Of a stretch of 64,000 bases of DNA, positions 2,444-9,295 are shown in pieces. This DNA is from Defluviicoccus sp. (lineage in GTDB: Bacteria > Pseudomonadota > Alphaproteobacteria > MPNO01). Made by a program: the position numbers and the translations under genes. Position 1 is the first letter of the stretch. The number at the start of each line of letters is the position of its first letter. The notes beneath the pieces were generated by a model that worked only from the letters and a program-made list of their open reading frames with translations, was not told the origin of the DNA and searched no databases. Location: positions 1-64,000 of the forward strand of contig JAJEHI010000085.1 of the NCBI GenBank assembly GCA_022823775.1, given 5' to 3'.

Positions 2444-3340
2444 ATGGAGTTGCGCAGGGTCGGCATTATCGGCCTCGGAGCGATGGGCCGTCCGATGGCG
2501 GAACATGTCGCCAGGGCCGGCTATTCGCTGAGGCTGCACGACATCGAACCCGGACGCGCCGAGGAAATCGCCAGATCGACCGGCGGCCGGGTCGCGAACG
2601 GTCCCGCCGGCGTTGCCGCGGCCAGCGATGTCGTCATCACCATGCTGCCGACCGGCGCGGATGTCGCCCGCGCCGCGCTCGGGGAAGGCGGAATTGCCGA
2701 CGGGTTTGCCGACGGCGGCATTCTGGTCGACATGAGCTCGTCGGAACCGTCCGGCACGGTGGAGCTCGCCGCGGCGCTCGCGGAGCGCGGGATCGGAACG
2801 ATCGACGCGCCCGTTTCCGGCGGACGCAAGGGCGCGGTGGAGGGCACGCTCACCATCATGGCGGGCGGCGACGCGGCACTTGTCGAGCGATGCCGGCCCA
2901 TGCTCGAGACCATGGGGAAGCGCGTCGTTCATACCGGCCCCGTCGGCTCGGGCCACGCGCTCAAGGCGCTCAACAACACGATCGGCGCCGCCGGCTTTCT
3001 GATCGCGATCGAGGCGTTTCTGGTCGGCAAACGGTTCGGCCTGGAACCGGAGACGATGGCCGAAGTCGTCAATTCGTCCACCGGCATGAACCATTCGACG
3101 CGCAACAAATTTGCCCAGTTCGTCTTTTCGCGCGGCTTCGATTCGGGATTTGCCCTGGACCTGATGGTCAAGGACCTCGACATCGCGCTCGATCTCGCGC
3201 GGGATACCGGGACGGCGGTGCCGTTCGCCGCGCTCAGCCGGCAGATCTGGGCCCAGGCGCAGCAAAATCTCGAGCCCGGGCGCGACCACACCGAAATCGT
3301 CCGATGGCTCGAACGAGTCGCCCGCGCGGAACTCCGGTAG
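2444..3340 (+). CDS. NAD(P)-dependent beta-hydroxyacid dehydrogenase (3-hydroxyisobutyrate dehydrogenase family)
   Basis: A 298-residue enzyme of the 3-hydroxyisobutyrate/tartronate-semialdehyde/6-phosphogluconate dehydrogenase superfamily. The dinucleotide motif GLGAMG is at residues 10-15, the substrate loop APVSGGRKGAVEGT at about 122-135, and the catalytic lysine is K174 in GHALKALNN. It would oxidise a 3-hydroxy acid to a semialdehyde or do the reverse. It begins a compact unit: the transporter gene starts 4 nt after its stop, and the AhpD-like gene overlaps the transporter. The substrate cannot be told from sequence. Confidence 0.9.
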   Translation: MELRRVGIIGLGAMGRPMAEHVARAGYSLRLHDIEPGRAEEIARSTGGRVANGPAGVAAASDVVITMLPTGADVARAALGEGGIADGFADGGILVDMSSSEPSGTVELAAALAERGIGTIDAPVSGGRKGAVEGTLTIMAGGDAALVERCRPMLETMGKRVVHTGPVGSGHALKALNNTIGAAGFLIAIEAFLVGKRFGLEPETMAEVVNSSTGMNHSTRNKFAQFVFSRGFDSGFALDLMVKDLDIALDLARDTGTAVPFAALSRQIWAQAQQNLEPGRDHTEIVRWLERVARAELR

Positions 3341-3344
3341 AGCG

Positions 3345-4262
3345 GTGAACGACAAGCCGGCGCGGGGTCCGGCCGCCTACCGCCCGAAACTCGACAATCT
3401 GCGCGGCATCCTCTGGATGCTGCTCGCCGTCACGCTGCTCACCGCGATGTTCGCGATCATCAAGCAGATGGCGACGGAGCTCCCGTTCTTCGTCGTCGCG
3501 CTGATGCGGACCACTACGGCGCTTGTCATGTTCGTTCCCTGGCTGATCCGCGTGGGCCGGCCGGGGATCGCGACCCGCCGCCTGAAGACCCATTTCCTGC
3601 GGGCCTTCTTCGGAATCGCTTCCTTCGCGGCGATCGTCTACGCGGTCGGGCGGCTGATGCTGTCGGACACGATGGTGCTTTCGTTCACGTCGCCGTTCTG
3701 GTCGATCCTGCTCTCGGGCCTGATCCTCGGCGAAACGATCCGCCGCGACCGGACGTTCGCCACCATTGCCGGGTTCGTCGGGGTGGTGATGATCGTCAAG
3801 CCGCACGGCGAGGTCGACCACGCGATGCTGATCGCGCTGGGGAGCGCGGTGCTCACCAGCGGCGCGATCATCTCGCTGAAGAGCCTGTCCTCGACCGAAC
3901 CGCCCGCCCGCATCGTGTTCTACTTTTTCCTCTTCGGCACGCTGTTCCTGCTGCCGCCCGCGCTCCTTACCTGGGAAACGCCGACCCTGGAGCAGTTCGG
4001 CTGGCTGATCGCGGCGGGAGTCCTCGGCGGGGTCGGGCAGAATTTCCTCGCGCGCGCCTACGACGCGGGCGAAGTGACGATCGTCGCCCCGCTCGATTTC
4101 CTGCGAATGCCGCTCGCGGCGTTCTTCGGCTTCGTCGTTTTTTCCGAAATCCCCGACATCTGGTCGGCCGGGGGAACGGCTGTGATAATCGCGGCGCTCC
4201 TGTTCATGACGCGACGCGACGCCATCGAGCGGCGGCGGCAGCGCGGGGAGACCCAGGGATGA
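3345..4262 (+). CDS. DMT-superfamily transporter, EamA family
   Basis: A 305-residue inner-membrane protein with about ten hydrophobic segments arranged as two EamA repeats, as expected for drug/metabolite exporters. The GTG start at 3345 lies 4 nt after the preceding stop, and the 3' end overlaps the next start as ATGA (4259-4262), so the three genes are probably translationally coupled. The cytosolic C-terminus is rich in arginine. Family members export amino acids, nucleosides or small metabolites; the cargo here is unknown. Confidence 0.85.
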   Translation: MNDKPARGPAAYRPKLDNLRGILWMLLAVTLLTAMFAIIKQMATELPFFVVALMRTTTALVMFVPWLIRVGRPGIATRRLKTHFLRAFFGIASFAAIVYAVGRLMLSDTMVLSFTSPFWSILLSGLILGETIRRDRTFATIAGFVGVVMIVKPHGEVDHAMLIALGSAVLTSGAIISLKSLSSTEPPARIVFYFFLFGTLFLLPPALLTWETPTLEQFGWLIAAGVLGGVGQNFLARAYDAGEVTIVAPLDFLRMPLAAFFGFVVFSEIPDIWSAGGTAVIIAALLFMTRRDAIERRRQRGETQG

Positions 4263-5356
4263 GCGGCGAAAAGCTGTCCGACCTCGCGCCGTTTGCAATT
4301 CGCGCCGACCTCGACCGGGCTTACGAGCGCGCCTGGAAACATCTCGCCAGCCCGGGAACATGGTGGGACGGCGCGCACAGGCTCGCCATGGTCCGGGCCT
4401 GCCGCGAAGCGCCCGATTGCGCGCTCTGCCGGGAACGGGCGGCTTCGCTCTCTCCTTTTGCGGTGGAGGGAGTCCACGATTCGACCAGCGGTCTGCCGGA
4501 CAATATCGTGGAGGTCGTCCACCGGATCCGGACCGATTCGGGGCGGCTGACCGAATCCTGGTTCCGCCGCGCGATCGACGGCGGGCTTTCCGAGACGGAA
4601 TATGTGGAGATCGTGGGCGTGGTTTCCGTCGCGACCGCCCTCGACACTCTGGCGAAGGCGCTCGGCATCCCGCCGCGGCCGCTTCCCGAGCCGCTGCCGG
4701 GCAGCCCTTCGCGCCATCGCCCGGCGAATGCCAGGCGGACGCTTGCCTGGGTCGCCACGCTCGAGCCCGAGGACGTCGCGGACGACCATCCCAACCCCTA
4801 TGGCGACAAGACGCCCGATCTCGTCGCCAACATCCACCGCGGGATGAGCGTCGTGCCGGCCGAGGTCGCGGCGTTCTTCGAGCTCGACGACGTTATCTAC
4901 CTGCCGCAATTCGCGCTCAAGGATTTCGCCAACGAATACCGCGCGATCGACCACGCCCAGATGGAGCTCGTCGCCGCCCGGGTCTCGCTGATCAACCGGT
5001 GCCGATACTGAACCGCCGGACATGTGATGCTGCTCCGTGAGAGCGGCGAGCATTACGGAGAAACCTATACCCTCGACGGCGTTACCGGGGATGGCGACGG
5101 CGGAGTGCCGCACGGCCGGCAGCTGCTCGATTTCGCCCAAGCGGCGATCGGCGGCACCGAGATCCAACTCCGCCGCGCGCGGGAGGCCCTGATCGCGGCC
5201 GTCGGCGAGGAAGGCTTCGTCGATGCCGCGGGCGTCGTCGCTTCCTTCAACGCTGTGGTGCGGATCGCCGATGCGACGGGGATTCCGGTCGAAAACTTCA
5301 AGCTGGAACGGACCGTCGAGGAGCGCGCCGCGCTCGGCATCGACGACTGGCACTGA
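4259..5356 (+). CDS. AhpD-like alkylhydroperoxidase-related selenoprotein (in-frame TGA read as Sec)
   Basis: One open frame of 365 codons is interrupted only by TGA at 5009-5011. Decoded as selenocysteine (residue 251), it completes C248-R-Y-U251-T-A-G-H255, the AhpD/carboxymuconolactone-decarboxylase active-site pattern CxxCxxxH with Sec as second redox residue. The conserved helical AhpD scaffold lies on both sides: LSETEYVEIVGVVSVATALD before it, and FVDAAGVVASFNAVVRIADATG after it. A second redox-type motif, C54-A-L-C57, lies near the N-terminus. AhpD-like proteins reduce peroxides or disulfides. The start overlaps the transporter stop (ATGA). A hairpin meeting the bacterial SECIS consensus follows the TGA. 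A nonsense mutation or base error (TGC to TGA) is the alternative. No sel genes lie in this window. Confidence 0.85.
5022..5053 (+). promoter_or_regulatory. Candidate bacterial SECIS element
   Basis: Immediately downstream of TGA 5009-5011. An 8-bp upper stem pairs 5028-5035 (UGCUGCUC) with 5041-5048 (GAGCGGCG), including two G-U pairs. It closes a 5-nt loop CGUGA (5036-5040) with G as its second base. A lower 3-bp helix pairs 5022-5024 with 5051-5053. Twenty-four nucleotides separate the TGA from the loop. The published bacterial SECIS consensus asks for a small loop with G in its first two bases about 16-37 nt after UGA and an upper stem of at least 4 bp. All are met. It would recruit SelB. 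Confidence 0.7.
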
Positions 5357-5431: not shown

Positions 5432-5533
5432 CCCCTCACCCCGACCCTCTCCCGAGGGAGAGGGAGACTTGCGGCACCGACCCCGCTCTACCGTCTCCCC
5501 TCCCGCTTGCGGGAGGGGCCGGGGGAGGGTGGG
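5432..5533. repeat. Dispersed palindromic repeat, family A, copy 1
   Basis: About 100 bp built from two hairpins: a CCCTCTCCC/GGGAGAGGG palindrome, then CTCCCGC-TT-GCGGGAG flanked by C and G tracts. The outer ends CCCTCACC and GGTGGG are also complementary. Copies are at 11653-11755, 24138-24239 and 49308-49408. It fills the gap between the convergent selenoprotein and prpC genes and could act as a bidirectional terminator. Confidence 0.8.
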
Positions 5534-5588: not shown

Positions 5589-6716
5589 TCAGCGCCGGCC
5601 GATCGGCAGGACCTCGCGCTGGGCCACGCCGCTATAGGCGCTGAGCGGGCGGATCAGCCTGTTGTCCGCGTTCTGCTCCAGGTAATGCGCGGTCCATCCG
5701 GTGATCCGGCTCATCACGAAGAGCGGCGTGAACATCTCGATGTCGAAGCCCATCATGTAATAGGCGGGGCCGGCCGGGAAATCGAGATTGGGGTGGATCC
5801 CCTTCTCCCCGATCATCACCTTCTGGAGCCCGTCGGACATGCGGATCCACGTGTCGTCGTCTTTCCAGGCGGCGAGGTCCTCCAGGCAGCGGCGCATCGT
5901 CGGCACCCGGGAATCTCCCGACTTGTAGACCCGGTGGCCGAACCCCATCACCAGCCTCTTTTGAGCGATGGCGTCCTTCATCCATTGCTCGGCGATGTCC
6001 GGGTCGCCGATTTCGAGGAACATGTGCATCACCGCCTCGTTGGCGCCGCCGTGGAGCGGGCCCTTGAGCGAGCCGATGCCGCCGGTGACCGCCGAATAGA
6101 TGTCCGACCGGCTGGAGGCGATGGTGCGTACGGTGAAGGTGGACGCGTTGAAGCTGTGCTCGGCGTAGAGGATCATCGAGGTATCGAAGGCGTCGATCAC
6201 CTCCCGCGGCGGCACCTCGCCGAAGCACATGTTGAAGAAGTTCTCGACCATGGGGAGATCGTCCCGGGGCGCGATGCGCTCCTCGCCCTTCCGGAACCGG
6301 TAGTCGGTCGCGATCATGGTCGGGATCTTGGCGAAGAGGTCGAGCGACCGGCTGCGGTCGGCCTCTTCCGGCTCCCCGCCCCAGGCGGTTTCCGTCGTGC
6401 CGAGATAGCTGACCGCCGTCCTCAGCGTGTCCATCGGGTGCGCGTCGCGCGGAAACCGCCGGATGACGGCGACATGGTCCTGCGAGATTTCGCGCCGCCG
6501 GGCTTCCTCCGCCCTGAGCTCGTCGAGCTGGGCGGCCGTCGGCAAATCGCCGTTCCACATCAGCCAGGCGACTTCCTCGAAGGAGGCGCGCGCGCAGAGG
6601 TCCTGCACCGCATAGCCGCGATAAGTGAGAGAGTTGGTCTCCGGCATCACCTTGGAGATCGCGGTGGTGTCCACCGTCACCCCGGCGAGGCCCTTCTGGA
6701 TTTCCGGTTCCGCCAT
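5589..6716 (-). CDS. prpC: 2-methylcitrate synthase (citrate synthase family)
   Basis: Condenses propionyl-CoA with oxaloacetate in the methylcitrate cycle. The 375 residues carry citrate-synthase landmarks: EHSFNASTF with H187, LHGGANEA with H222, and GFGHRVYK with H261, plus a conserved aspartate in NLDFPAG. ATG at 6716. It is the last gene of the minus-strand prpD-prpB-prpC operon, 34 nt after prpB. The methylcitrate rather than citrate assignment rests on the prp neighbours. The family does not separate cleanly by sequence, and dual citrate/methylcitrate activity is possible. Confidence 0.9.
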   Translation of the reverse strand: MAEPEIQKGLAGVTVDTTAISKVMPETNSLTYRGYAVQDLCARASFEEVAWLMWNGDLPTAAQLDELRAEEARRREISQDHVAVIRRFPRDAHPMDTLRTAVSYLGTTETAWGGEPEEADRSRSLDLFAKIPTMIATDYRFRKGEERIAPRDDLPMVENFFNMCFGEVPPREVIDAFDTSMILYAEHSFNASTFTVRTIASSRSDIYSAVTGGIGSLKGPLHGGANEAVMHMFLEIGDPDIAEQWMKDAIAQKRLVMGFGHRVYKSGDSRVPTMRRCLEDLAAWKDDDTWIRMSDGLQKVMIGEKGIHPNLDFPAGPAYYMMGFDIEMFTPLFVMSRITGWTAHYLEQNADNRLIRPLSAYSGVAQREVLPIGRR

Positions 6717-6750
6717 CCGTTCCTCCCTTTCCGTCCCGCCCCTCGGGCAT

Positions 6751-7644
6751 TCAGATCCTGAAATTGAAGAGGCTCCGGTCGAAGCGATTGTAATCCTCGT
6801 AGCGAACCAGCTCATAGAGCCGCTTGCGGGTCTGCATCCGGGGGACGGCGTCCTCCTGGCTGCCCCTCTCCTTCAGGATGTCGAGCCCTTCCTCGACCCC
6901 GAACATCGCGAGGCGAAGCGTCGTTACCGGGTAGATCGCGATGTTGTAGCCGAGCTCGACCAGCCGGTCGCGCGTGAGCAGCGGCGTCTTTCCGAACTCG
7001 GTCAGATTGGCCAGAAGGGGCACGTCGATCGCCGCGCGGAAGGCCTCGTATTCGGGGATCGCGGCGAGAGCCTCGGGAAAGATCGCGTCCGCGCCCGCGT
7101 CGACATAGGCCCTGGCGCGGTCGATCGCCGCCTCCATCCCCTCGGAAGCCTTGGCGTCGGTCCGAGCCATCAGGAGAAAGTTCGGATCGCGTTTTGCATC
7201 GGCCGCGGCGCGGATCTTCTGCGCCATGTCGGCGGCCGGGATCAGCACCTTGTTGTCGAGATGACCGCAGCGCTTGGGGCTGAGCTGATCCTCCAGATGG
7301 CATCCCGCGAGCCCGGCATCCTCGATCTCCTGGATCGAGCGCGCCGCGTTCATCGGCTCGCCGAACCCGGTGTCGAGGTCGATCAGCGCGGGCAGGTCGG
7401 TCGCGCGCGCGATCTGGTGGCCCCGCGCCGTCACCTCGGGCAGCGTCGTCAGCCCGATATCGGGAAGCGCGAGGTCGGCCGACAGCGCGGCGCCCGAGAT
7501 GTAGATACCGTCGAAACCCTTTTCCTGGACCGTCACCGCCACCAGGGGCGAGAACGCGCCCGGCATCTGCAGCAACGCGCCGGAGTCGAGCGCGGCGCGG
7601 AACGCGGCGCGTTTCTCCGCCGCCGTCTTCTTCGCGAACAGCAT
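6751..7644 (-). CDS. prpB: 2-methylisocitrate lyase
   Basis: Cleaves 2-methylisocitrate to pyruvate and succinate. The 297 residues of the isocitrate lyase/PEP mutase superfamily include the catalytic motif K124-R-C-G-H128, with C126 as the expected acid/base, and the metal-binding D89-L-D91-T-G-F-G segment. The start at 7644 shares its first base with the prpD stop codon (TGATG arrangement), so translation is coupled. Middle gene of prpD-prpB-prpC. Confidence 0.95.
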   Translation of the reverse strand: MLFAKKTAAEKRAAFRAALDSGALLQMPGAFSPLVAVTVQEKGFDGIYISGAALSADLALPDIGLTTLPEVTARGHQIARATDLPALIDLDTGFGEPMNAARSIQEIEDAGLAGCHLEDQLSPKRCGHLDNKVLIPAADMAQKIRAAADAKRDPNFLLMARTDAKASEGMEAAIDRARAYVDAGADAIFPEALAAIPEYEAFRAAIDVPLLANLTEFGKTPLLTRDRLVELGYNIAIYPVTTLRLAMFGVEEGLDILKERGSQEDAVPRMQTRKRLYELVRYEDYNRFDRSLFNFRI

Positions 7645-9152
7645 CAGAAAATCCCCCTGTCGTCGCGCTCCGCGTTGACCAGGCTCGCGGGATCGACCGC
7701 CACGTTGAGGCCGCCCAGGTCTTCGGGTCCGAGGTCGGGCAGGCGCTGGACCAGGTCGAGGAAGCGGCGCTGCTCCTCGGGCGCGGCGATACCGTCGGCC
7801 AGCGTCTCGAACTTGCGGATATAGTCCGCCCGGGCGAACGGGCGCGCCCCGGCGGAATGGGCGTTGGCGACCGCGAGCTCGTCGACGACCGTCTCGCCGG
7901 AGTCGAGCACGATCTCGAGCCGCCCGCCGAAGGCCCGTTTGTTGGGGTCGGGTTCGTGGTAGCGCGCGGTCCACTCGGCGTCCTCGACCGTGGATATCTT
8001 GTGCCACAGCCGGACCGTGTCCGGACGTCCGGCCCGTTCCGGCGCGTAGGATCGGATGTGGTGCCATTCGCCGTCCTGGAGGGCGACCGCCAGGATGTAC
8101 ATGATGCTGTGATCGAGCGTCTCGCGACTCGCCTTGGGGTCCATCTTCTGCGGATCCCCGGCGCCGGTTCCGATCACGTAGTGGGTGTGATGGCTGGTGT
8201 GGAGGACGATGCGGTCGATCCGCTCGAAGTCCGCGATCCGGCCGCGCATGCGGAATGCGAGATCGATGATGGCCTGGCTCTGATATTCGGCCGAATGCTC
8301 CTTGGTGTAGGATTCGAGGATCGCGCGCTTGGCCTCGCCCGGCGCGGGCAACGGCACCGTGTATTCGGCATCCGGCCCGTCGAGCACGCGGGCGATCACG
8401 CTGTCCTCCCCTTCGTAGATCGGGGACGGCGCGCCCTCGCCCCGCATCGTGCGGTCCACCGCTTCGATCGCGAGCTTGCCCGCGTGCGCCGGCGCGAACG
8501 CCTTCCAGCTCGAAATCTCGCCCTTGCGCGACTGGCGCGTGCTCACCGAAGTGTGCAGCGCCTGCTGCACCGCCTGGTAGACCGTCTCGGTCGGGAGCCC
8601 GAGCAGCGTGCCCAGCCCCGCCGCCGCCGAGGGCCCGAGATGTGCGATGTGATCGATCTTGTGGGCGTGCAGGCAGATGCCCTTGACCAGATCGATCTGG
8701 ATCTCGTAGGCGGTCGCGATGCCGCGCACGAGGTCCGCCCCGCCCCGCCGGGTCTGCTGCGCCACCGCGAGGATCGCCGGGATGTTATCGCCGGGGTGGG
8801 AATAGTCGGCGGCGAGGAAGGTGTCGTGGAAATCGAGCTCGCGCACCGCCGTTCCGTTCGCCCATGCGGTCCATTCGGCGGCGAACCGCCGTTCCGACGC
8901 GATACCGAACACCGCCGCGCCGCCGTCGCGGGGATGAGCGAGCGCCTGCGCGCGGGCAGCGGCTACGGGAGACCGGTTGAGCGCCGCCACGGCGACGGCG
9001 GCGTTGTCGACAATCCGGTTGACGACCATGTCGACCACCGCGGACTCGACCGCTACGGGATCGGTTGCGACGGCCGCGATTTTCCATGCGAGCTGGTCTT
9101 GCCTTGCTAAGGCTTCTTTCGAAGGATAGACCTTAACTGTATGATTTATCAT
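7644..9152 (-). CDS. prpD: 2-methylcitrate dehydratase, MmgE/PrpD family
   Basis: Dehydrates 2-methylcitrate towards 2-methyl-cis-aconitate and needs no iron-sulfur cluster. About 502 residues; full PrpD length and family pattern, including a [16 protein letters not shown] segment and [14 protein letters not shown]. The ATG at 9152 (MINHTVKV) was chosen because GGAAGGA lies about 12 nt upstream; an in-frame codon at 9194 would add 14 residues unlike the family. First gene of the prp operon, transcribed away from the cupin gene across a 143-bp divergent promoter region. No PrpR-type regulator is visible nearby. Confidence 0.92.
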
Positions 9153-9295
9153 CGAGATGTCTGTTCCTTCCCAGCTTTCCGCATGAGCGATCATACCCCG
9201 GACCGGGACCCGGTCAAATCGCGTTCGGCAGCGTGTTGTGGGCTCCCGGACGGTGTGATTAGGTAGCCCGATCCTCTCGCCTACGGAGGCTATGA

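Follow-up and report, generated by a model that had tools for sequence, protein, structure and literature searches.

A selenoprotein gene of the AhpD-related family NF041238 in Defluviicoccus sp., with a putative SECIS-like hairpin and a probable tandem AhpD architecture

The stretch of DNA analyzed here (the window, 64,000 nucleotides from a draft assembly of 4.8 Mb in 198 contigs) carries on its plus strand, at 4259-5356, a gene for an AhpD-related protein of 365 amino acids, in which one in-frame TGA is read through. This UGA codon (5009-5011) almost certainly encodes selenocysteine (Sec) at residue 251, which would make the locus a genuine selenoprotein gene. Judged by its sequence, the gene product is a member of NCBIfam NF041238, a family that is already catalogued and named and at the same time uncharacterized. 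The recoding signals, the selenocysteine machinery, the predicted fold and the active-site residues with their spacing were all computed, and the best overall explanation, which we hold with good confidence, is an NF041238 selenoprotein that receives its Sec under the guidance of a hairpin, consists of tandem AhpD-like domains and acts by a redox mechanism.

Reading frame and the internal TGA

When TGA is translated as Sec, positions 4259-5353 give one protein of 365 residues with codon 251 as the single internal TGA, followed by the final stop TGA at 5354-5356. The earlier note, made from the letters alone, had described exactly this arrangement, i.e. two frames in the same phase that are separated by one TGA and when joined yield CRY-U-TAGH; its coordinates are correct, and the motif reads C248-R-Y-U251-T-A-G-H255. 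The in-frame TGA at 5009-5011 is real and lies far beyond chance. At the equivalent codon, TGA is also found in four relatives from the genus, whose proteins are 89, 86, 79 and about 75% identical. Among four of the genus orthologues, dN/dS is low on both sides of the TGA (0.14-0.25 before, 0.12-0.35 after), hence the part downstream of the TGA evolves as protein.

The protein matches NF041238 with 443.3 bits (cut-off 175), residues 14-364 being aligned to positions 1-355 of the 357 in the profile. The expectation that conventional annotation would split the gene does not hold in general, because NF041238 is a full-length '(seleno)protein' equivalog, so that the NCBI pipeline need not split it.

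It could nevertheless be argued that the TGA is a genuine stop, a mutation or a sequencing error, and that the gene at this locus is broken or split. Translated with table 11, the frame indeed stops at 5011, another open frame (5024-5356) begins with GTG, and the window belongs to a draft assembly in many contigs. However, independent genomes from several lineages have TGA at this codon, as do all five paralogues of the genome, purifying selection continues beyond the TGA, a conserved hairpin follows it, and the co-occurrence with selB is perfect in the class sample (see below), which together leave the broken gene extremely improbable. As a separate observation, the window holds eleven further same-frame TGA candidates; these resemble either the end of one gene with a new start behind it or non-coding read-through.

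Putative SECIS element and selenocysteine machinery

Inside the coding sequence, 21-37 nt downstream of the U of the UGA, lies a putative bacterial SECIS-like hairpin (5030-5046, plus strand), composed of a 6-bp stem CUGCUC/GAGCGG (5030-5035/5041-5046) and the 5-nt loop CGUGA. Its position, size and loop G match those of bacterial SECIS elements. The codons that form it are strongly constrained: L259 is encoded by CTC in 41/41 aligned members, compared to 30/160 at other conserved Leu positions, and R260 by CGT in 41/41, compared to 37/397 at other conserved Arg positions. Among 92 distinct segments, CTC is present at L259 in all 92 and CGT at R260 in 83, otherwise CGG, and the loops of the family are 5 nt long with the sequence CGUGN or CGGGN. 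In the covariation test 97% of the cells were paired and 11 cells had changed on both sides with pairing retained, while none of 500 shuffles reached the pairing values or the covariation score. The same helix is predicted by RNAalifold. Comparative tests were used because folding energies calculated for the SECIS segment of individual sequences are uninformative: against shuffles they gave z values from -1.9 to +1.7, not significant for most members, which makes them a non-discriminating measure. The Rfam search of the window returned nothing above the gathering score, and no such match is expected for this hairpin. Overall, the conserved and covarying hairpin fits what would be expected of a bacterial SECIS.

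Furthermore, all four components of the selenocysteine machinery for which the earlier note had proposed to search are found in the source genome. SelB is encoded at C147:29374-31260 (457 bits, over the cut-off) with selA directly upstream of it (L017:3903-5375, 572 bits), tRNA-Sec (selC) at C147:32274-32365 (75 bits, over the cut-off; identified by ARAGORN as tRNA-SeC with anticodon tca) and SelD at C195:12824-13723 (311 bits, over the cut-off). The constellation that had been named as an argument against selenocysteine, namely the lack of selB and selC together with relatives that all encode cysteine, was looked for, and the opposite was found on both counts. In a class sample of 385 genomes, SelB scored over its cut-off in 54, and selB was present in 27/27 carriers of the family compared to 27/358 non-carriers (Fisher p 8e-27, a value that ignores kinship). 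According to the coordinates, 6/27 carriers (G033, G117, G148, G210, G303 and G380), three of which belong to one genus, have a family gene no more than about 5 kb away from selB. With SelA, SelB, tRNA-Sec and SelD present, the TGA kept and the hairpin conserved, the central proposal of Sec at the second active-site Cys of the AhpD motif is upheld.

Conservation of the TGA and the search for Cys forms

The source genome encodes five NF041238 members with exactly one internal TGA in each; the four other genes (G000 C45, C186, C98 and C52, loci L051-L054) are situated in separate neighbourhoods. The members in the genus and in the order likewise contain one internal TGA each, apart from truncated matches. 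In the alignment of the family TGA occupies the same column in 41/41 members, and in genome_contigs it was found at the Sec position in 80/80 loci, these being the best-scoring 80 of 477. The 385-genome class sample gave 52 matches over the cut-off with one TGA in each, and the same applies to every over-cut-off match in six genomes from further named lineages and in samples taken around these. No Cys form was found at the family cut-off in the class, the phylum, one further class and two further phyla searched; short AhpD-like relatives below the cut-off and without an internal stop do exist. The search of plasmids gave no match. Aligning the homologues at the TGA position, as had been suggested, thus revealed TGA in all full-length homologues examined. 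Among the over-cut-off matches examined, NF041238 is therefore apparently an obligate selenoprotein family that has no Cys fallback.

Two side observations belong here. Shorter AhpD-like relatives below the cut-off with one in-frame TGA occur in G933, G1029, G1080, G806, G1212 and G1215 and are possibly other AhpD-like selenoproteins. Moreover, one orthologue (L058:6138-7283, G001 C47) contains an insertion and comprises 382 residues; for this gene the genome search gave two matches, one stop-free and one with TGA, a split that may reflect an assembly or frameshift problem.

Protein architecture, active site and proposed mechanism

The C-terminal half of the protein contains the AhpD active site E236 ... 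C248-x-Y250-U251-x-x-x-H255 (4964-5023, plus strand), in which the five named residues are invariant among 34 aligned members. Their spacing equals that of Glu74/Cys86/Tyr88/Cys89/His93 reported for Ralstonia eutropha YP_296737.1 (PMC4674687). The N-terminal part carries a C54xxC57 motif (4418-4429, plus strand), the counterpart of CxxU in a first AhpD-like domain, which is devoid of the relay Glu and His. The earlier note had singled out this additional CxxC and the length of 365 residues, but neither is unusual in this family, since the CxxC is present in 37/41 aligned members and the model comprises 357 positions. The CxxC is missing in one paralogue clade (L054, L089, L090), which is followed downstream by a short AhpD-like gene with the stretch CLHCQSHGSYH.

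A structure predicted by AlphaFold2 from a 34-sequence alignment reached pLDDT 93 and pTM 0.93. In Foldseek searches its C-terminal half matched AhpD-type structures (AhpD 6k40 with probability 1.00), and the N-terminal 165 residues, modelled alone, also retrieved AhpD structures with probability 1.00 and TM about 0.5. The full-length model matched Sestrin2 (5t0n; probability 1.00, E 0.011, TM 0.48), a weak match with an rmsd of about 13-15 Å. Within the protein, hhalign placed C54xxC57 on C248xxU251 (P 2.5e-4, probability 43%). The N-terminal domain match, the Sestrin2 match and the internal repeat together favour a tandem architecture, and the protein probably consists of two AhpD-like domains, an arrangement known from Sestrins and some bacterial fused AhpD proteins (PMC4674687, PMC11429811). 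Foldseek also listed citrate synthases with a probability of at most 0.16, which were discarded as chance matches.

How such a protein would be made and would work can be outlined as follows. Ribosomes would read the UGA at 5009-5011 as Sec with the help of SelA, SelB, SelD and tRNA-Sec of the same genome, and the hairpin 21-37 nt further downstream would guide this read-through. The C-terminal domain would then offer the full AhpD relay of Glu236, Cys248, Tyr250 and His255, and its second active-site position would be occupied by Sec251. In Mycobacterium tuberculosis AhpD it is the second Cys that reacts with peroxide. From this knowledge and the conserved relay we assign the attacking role to Sec251 and the resolving role to Cys248. 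The substrate attacked by Sec251 could be a hydroperoxide, some other electrophile or a disulfide; Cys248 could resolve the selenenic acid as selenenylsulfide, which a cellular thiol system could then reduce. The N-terminal CxxC may provide a second dithiol without a relay. The protein is somewhat more likely than otherwise to serve as a Sec-dependent hydroperoxide reductase or thiol oxidoreductase; the chemistry, the substrate, the reductant and the physiological role are what we infer here.

Genomic context and alternative functions

In this locus the selenoprotein gene is the last of a three-gene run on the plus strand. The run begins with a 3-hydroxyisobutyrate-dehydrogenase-like (HIBADH-like) gene (2444-3340; PF03446, PF14833) and continues with a gene for an EamA-family transporter (3345-4262; Pfam PF00892, 97.5 bits), whose stop overlaps the start of the selenoprotein gene by 4 nt (ATGA, 4259-4262). 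The earlier note had pointed to a coupling with the exporter and a hydroxyacid dehydrogenase. The adjacency of the three genes is indeed preserved in 5/5 genomes of the genus, yet it is the genus-level arrangement of one paralogue and not a property of the family. A specific cooperation of the three proteins in one export or detoxification pathway, which three same-strand genes with an overlap between the last two, kept throughout the genus, might indicate, appears quite improbable: the other loci showed no close homologue of the HIBADH-like or the EamA gene at a comparable position, different genes flank the remaining four paralogues, and the five genomes are close relatives, so that their synteny is weak evidence of function. 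Hence, we built no pathway on an arrangement that was not found elsewhere.

As judged by reading the sequences without a profile search, the neighbours of the paralogues include enoyl-CoA hydratase, ring-hydroxylating-dioxygenase-like, amidohydrolase-like and molybdenum-hydroxylase-like proteins. Five paralogues with such different neighbours in one genome would be consistent with an AhpD fold that is used for other thiol or selenol chemistry on small molecules, for example a reductive dehalogenation as in Bmp8 or a catabolic disulfide or persulfide step, each paralogue serving a different pathway. The AhpD fold is known to serve other chemistries, and the Bmp8 debrominase (6ohi/6ohj) is among the structural matches of Foldseek, which counts against simply assuming peroxide reduction. 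However, the full AhpD proton relay is invariant and the structures nearest in sequence carry AhpD or peroxidase-related annotations, and we regard such a non-peroxidase role as rather unlikely. Since no neighbour is common to all paralogue groups, the genomic context is weak either way on the chemistry. A more far-reaching version, in which an obligate-Sec, Sestrin-like tandem AhpD family with five differently located paralogues in one genus performs small-molecule redox chemistry outside the known peroxidases, and in which the CxxC acts as an additional redox site that relays to the Sec site, is speculative and unlikely. The reductase or oxidoreductase role outlined above remains our preferred assignment.

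Some further features of these regions should be mentioned. A thioredoxin-reductase-like gene (assigned by reading its sequence) near paralogue group 2 was considered as a functional link and rejected, because the two are separated by an Lrp-like gene on the opposite strand. Downstream in the window, genes of the 2-methylcitrate (propionate) pathway (5589-9194) are located on the minus strand and converge with the selenoprotein operon; they include a prpC-like citrate/2-methylcitrate synthase (5589-6815) and a prpD-like 2-methylcitrate dehydratase (7644-9194). The repeated element CCCTCACCCCGACCCTCTCCC occurs with its variants in four copies (window positions 5433, 11654, 24140 and 49310), of which none would be expected by chance, and the copy at 5433 is situated just downstream of the selenoprotein gene.

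Significance and comparison with known systems

The present analysis confirms a catalogued but uncharacterized selenoprotein family in a genus whose genomes hold five copies each. In contrast to the many selenoprotein families with abundant Cys homologues, NF041238 apparently uses Sec without a Cys fallback. Should its chemistry depend on selenium, these proteins would be well suited for learning why. With its five-paralogue genomes and its linkage to selB, the family can also serve as a useful marker for the use of Sec in uncultured Alphaproteobacteria and in some further lineages. Three points perhaps deserve attention, namely that Cys forms are apparently absent, that the family is expanded fivefold in one genus, and what chemistry it performs.

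The earlier impression that this protein looks undescribed has to be revised. Its family, NF041238 (AhpD_rel_CFYUT, an equivalog named 'alkylhydroperoxidase-related (seleno)protein', model length 357), has been known since 2005, when hypothetical protein 1 of the Sargasso Sea metagenome was described as a selenoprotein family of four sequences with the motif CXXU and a predicted SECIS (PMC1088965). The homologue counts of 7 and 5 given there possibly refer to Cys forms. A review from 2026 equates the two, since its entry for NF041238 reads 'AhpD-related protein (hypothetical protein 1, Sargasso Sea metagenome)' with the motif CxxU (PMC13188914). The present gene shares with the family the CxxU motif, one in-frame TGA, the size, the SECIS-like hairpin and the full-length match; it differs by the motif CRYUT instead of CFYUT, by being one of five paralogues in its genome and by an operon with HIBADH-like and EamA genes that was seen in this genus only.

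AhpD and the peroxidase-related enzymes (TIGR00778, TIGR01926; structures 6k40, 2prr and 3c1l) have the fold of the C-terminal domain and the Glu/Cys/Tyr/Cys/His catalytic layout in common with our protein, which scores 34.1 bits with TIGR00778 (cut-off 27.8) and 32 with TIGR01926, i.e. under the cut-off of 82. In contrast to them, it would carry Sec in place of the second Cys and an extra N-terminal AhpD-like domain. CxxU in an AhpD domain is also found in AhpD-like 1 and 2 of the GOS survey (PMC2398784) and in the TIGR01926 and NF041047 types (PMC13188914), but these are listed as families of their own, to which different domains are assigned (COG2128, pfam02627, NF041047). Finally, Sestrins and bacterial fused AhpD dimers resemble the predicted structure in having two AhpD-like domains per chain (PMC4674687, PMC11429811), and the Cys/Tyr/His spacing equals that of Cys125/Tyr127/His132 in Sestrin2. 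Based on the model, the protein is Sestrin-like in architecture but not a Sestrin: in Sestrins the catalytic site is N-terminal and has lost the second Cys, and an acidic hinge replaces the C-terminal active site (PMC11429811), whereas here the catalytic site is the C-terminal one, with Sec and an intact CxxU...H.
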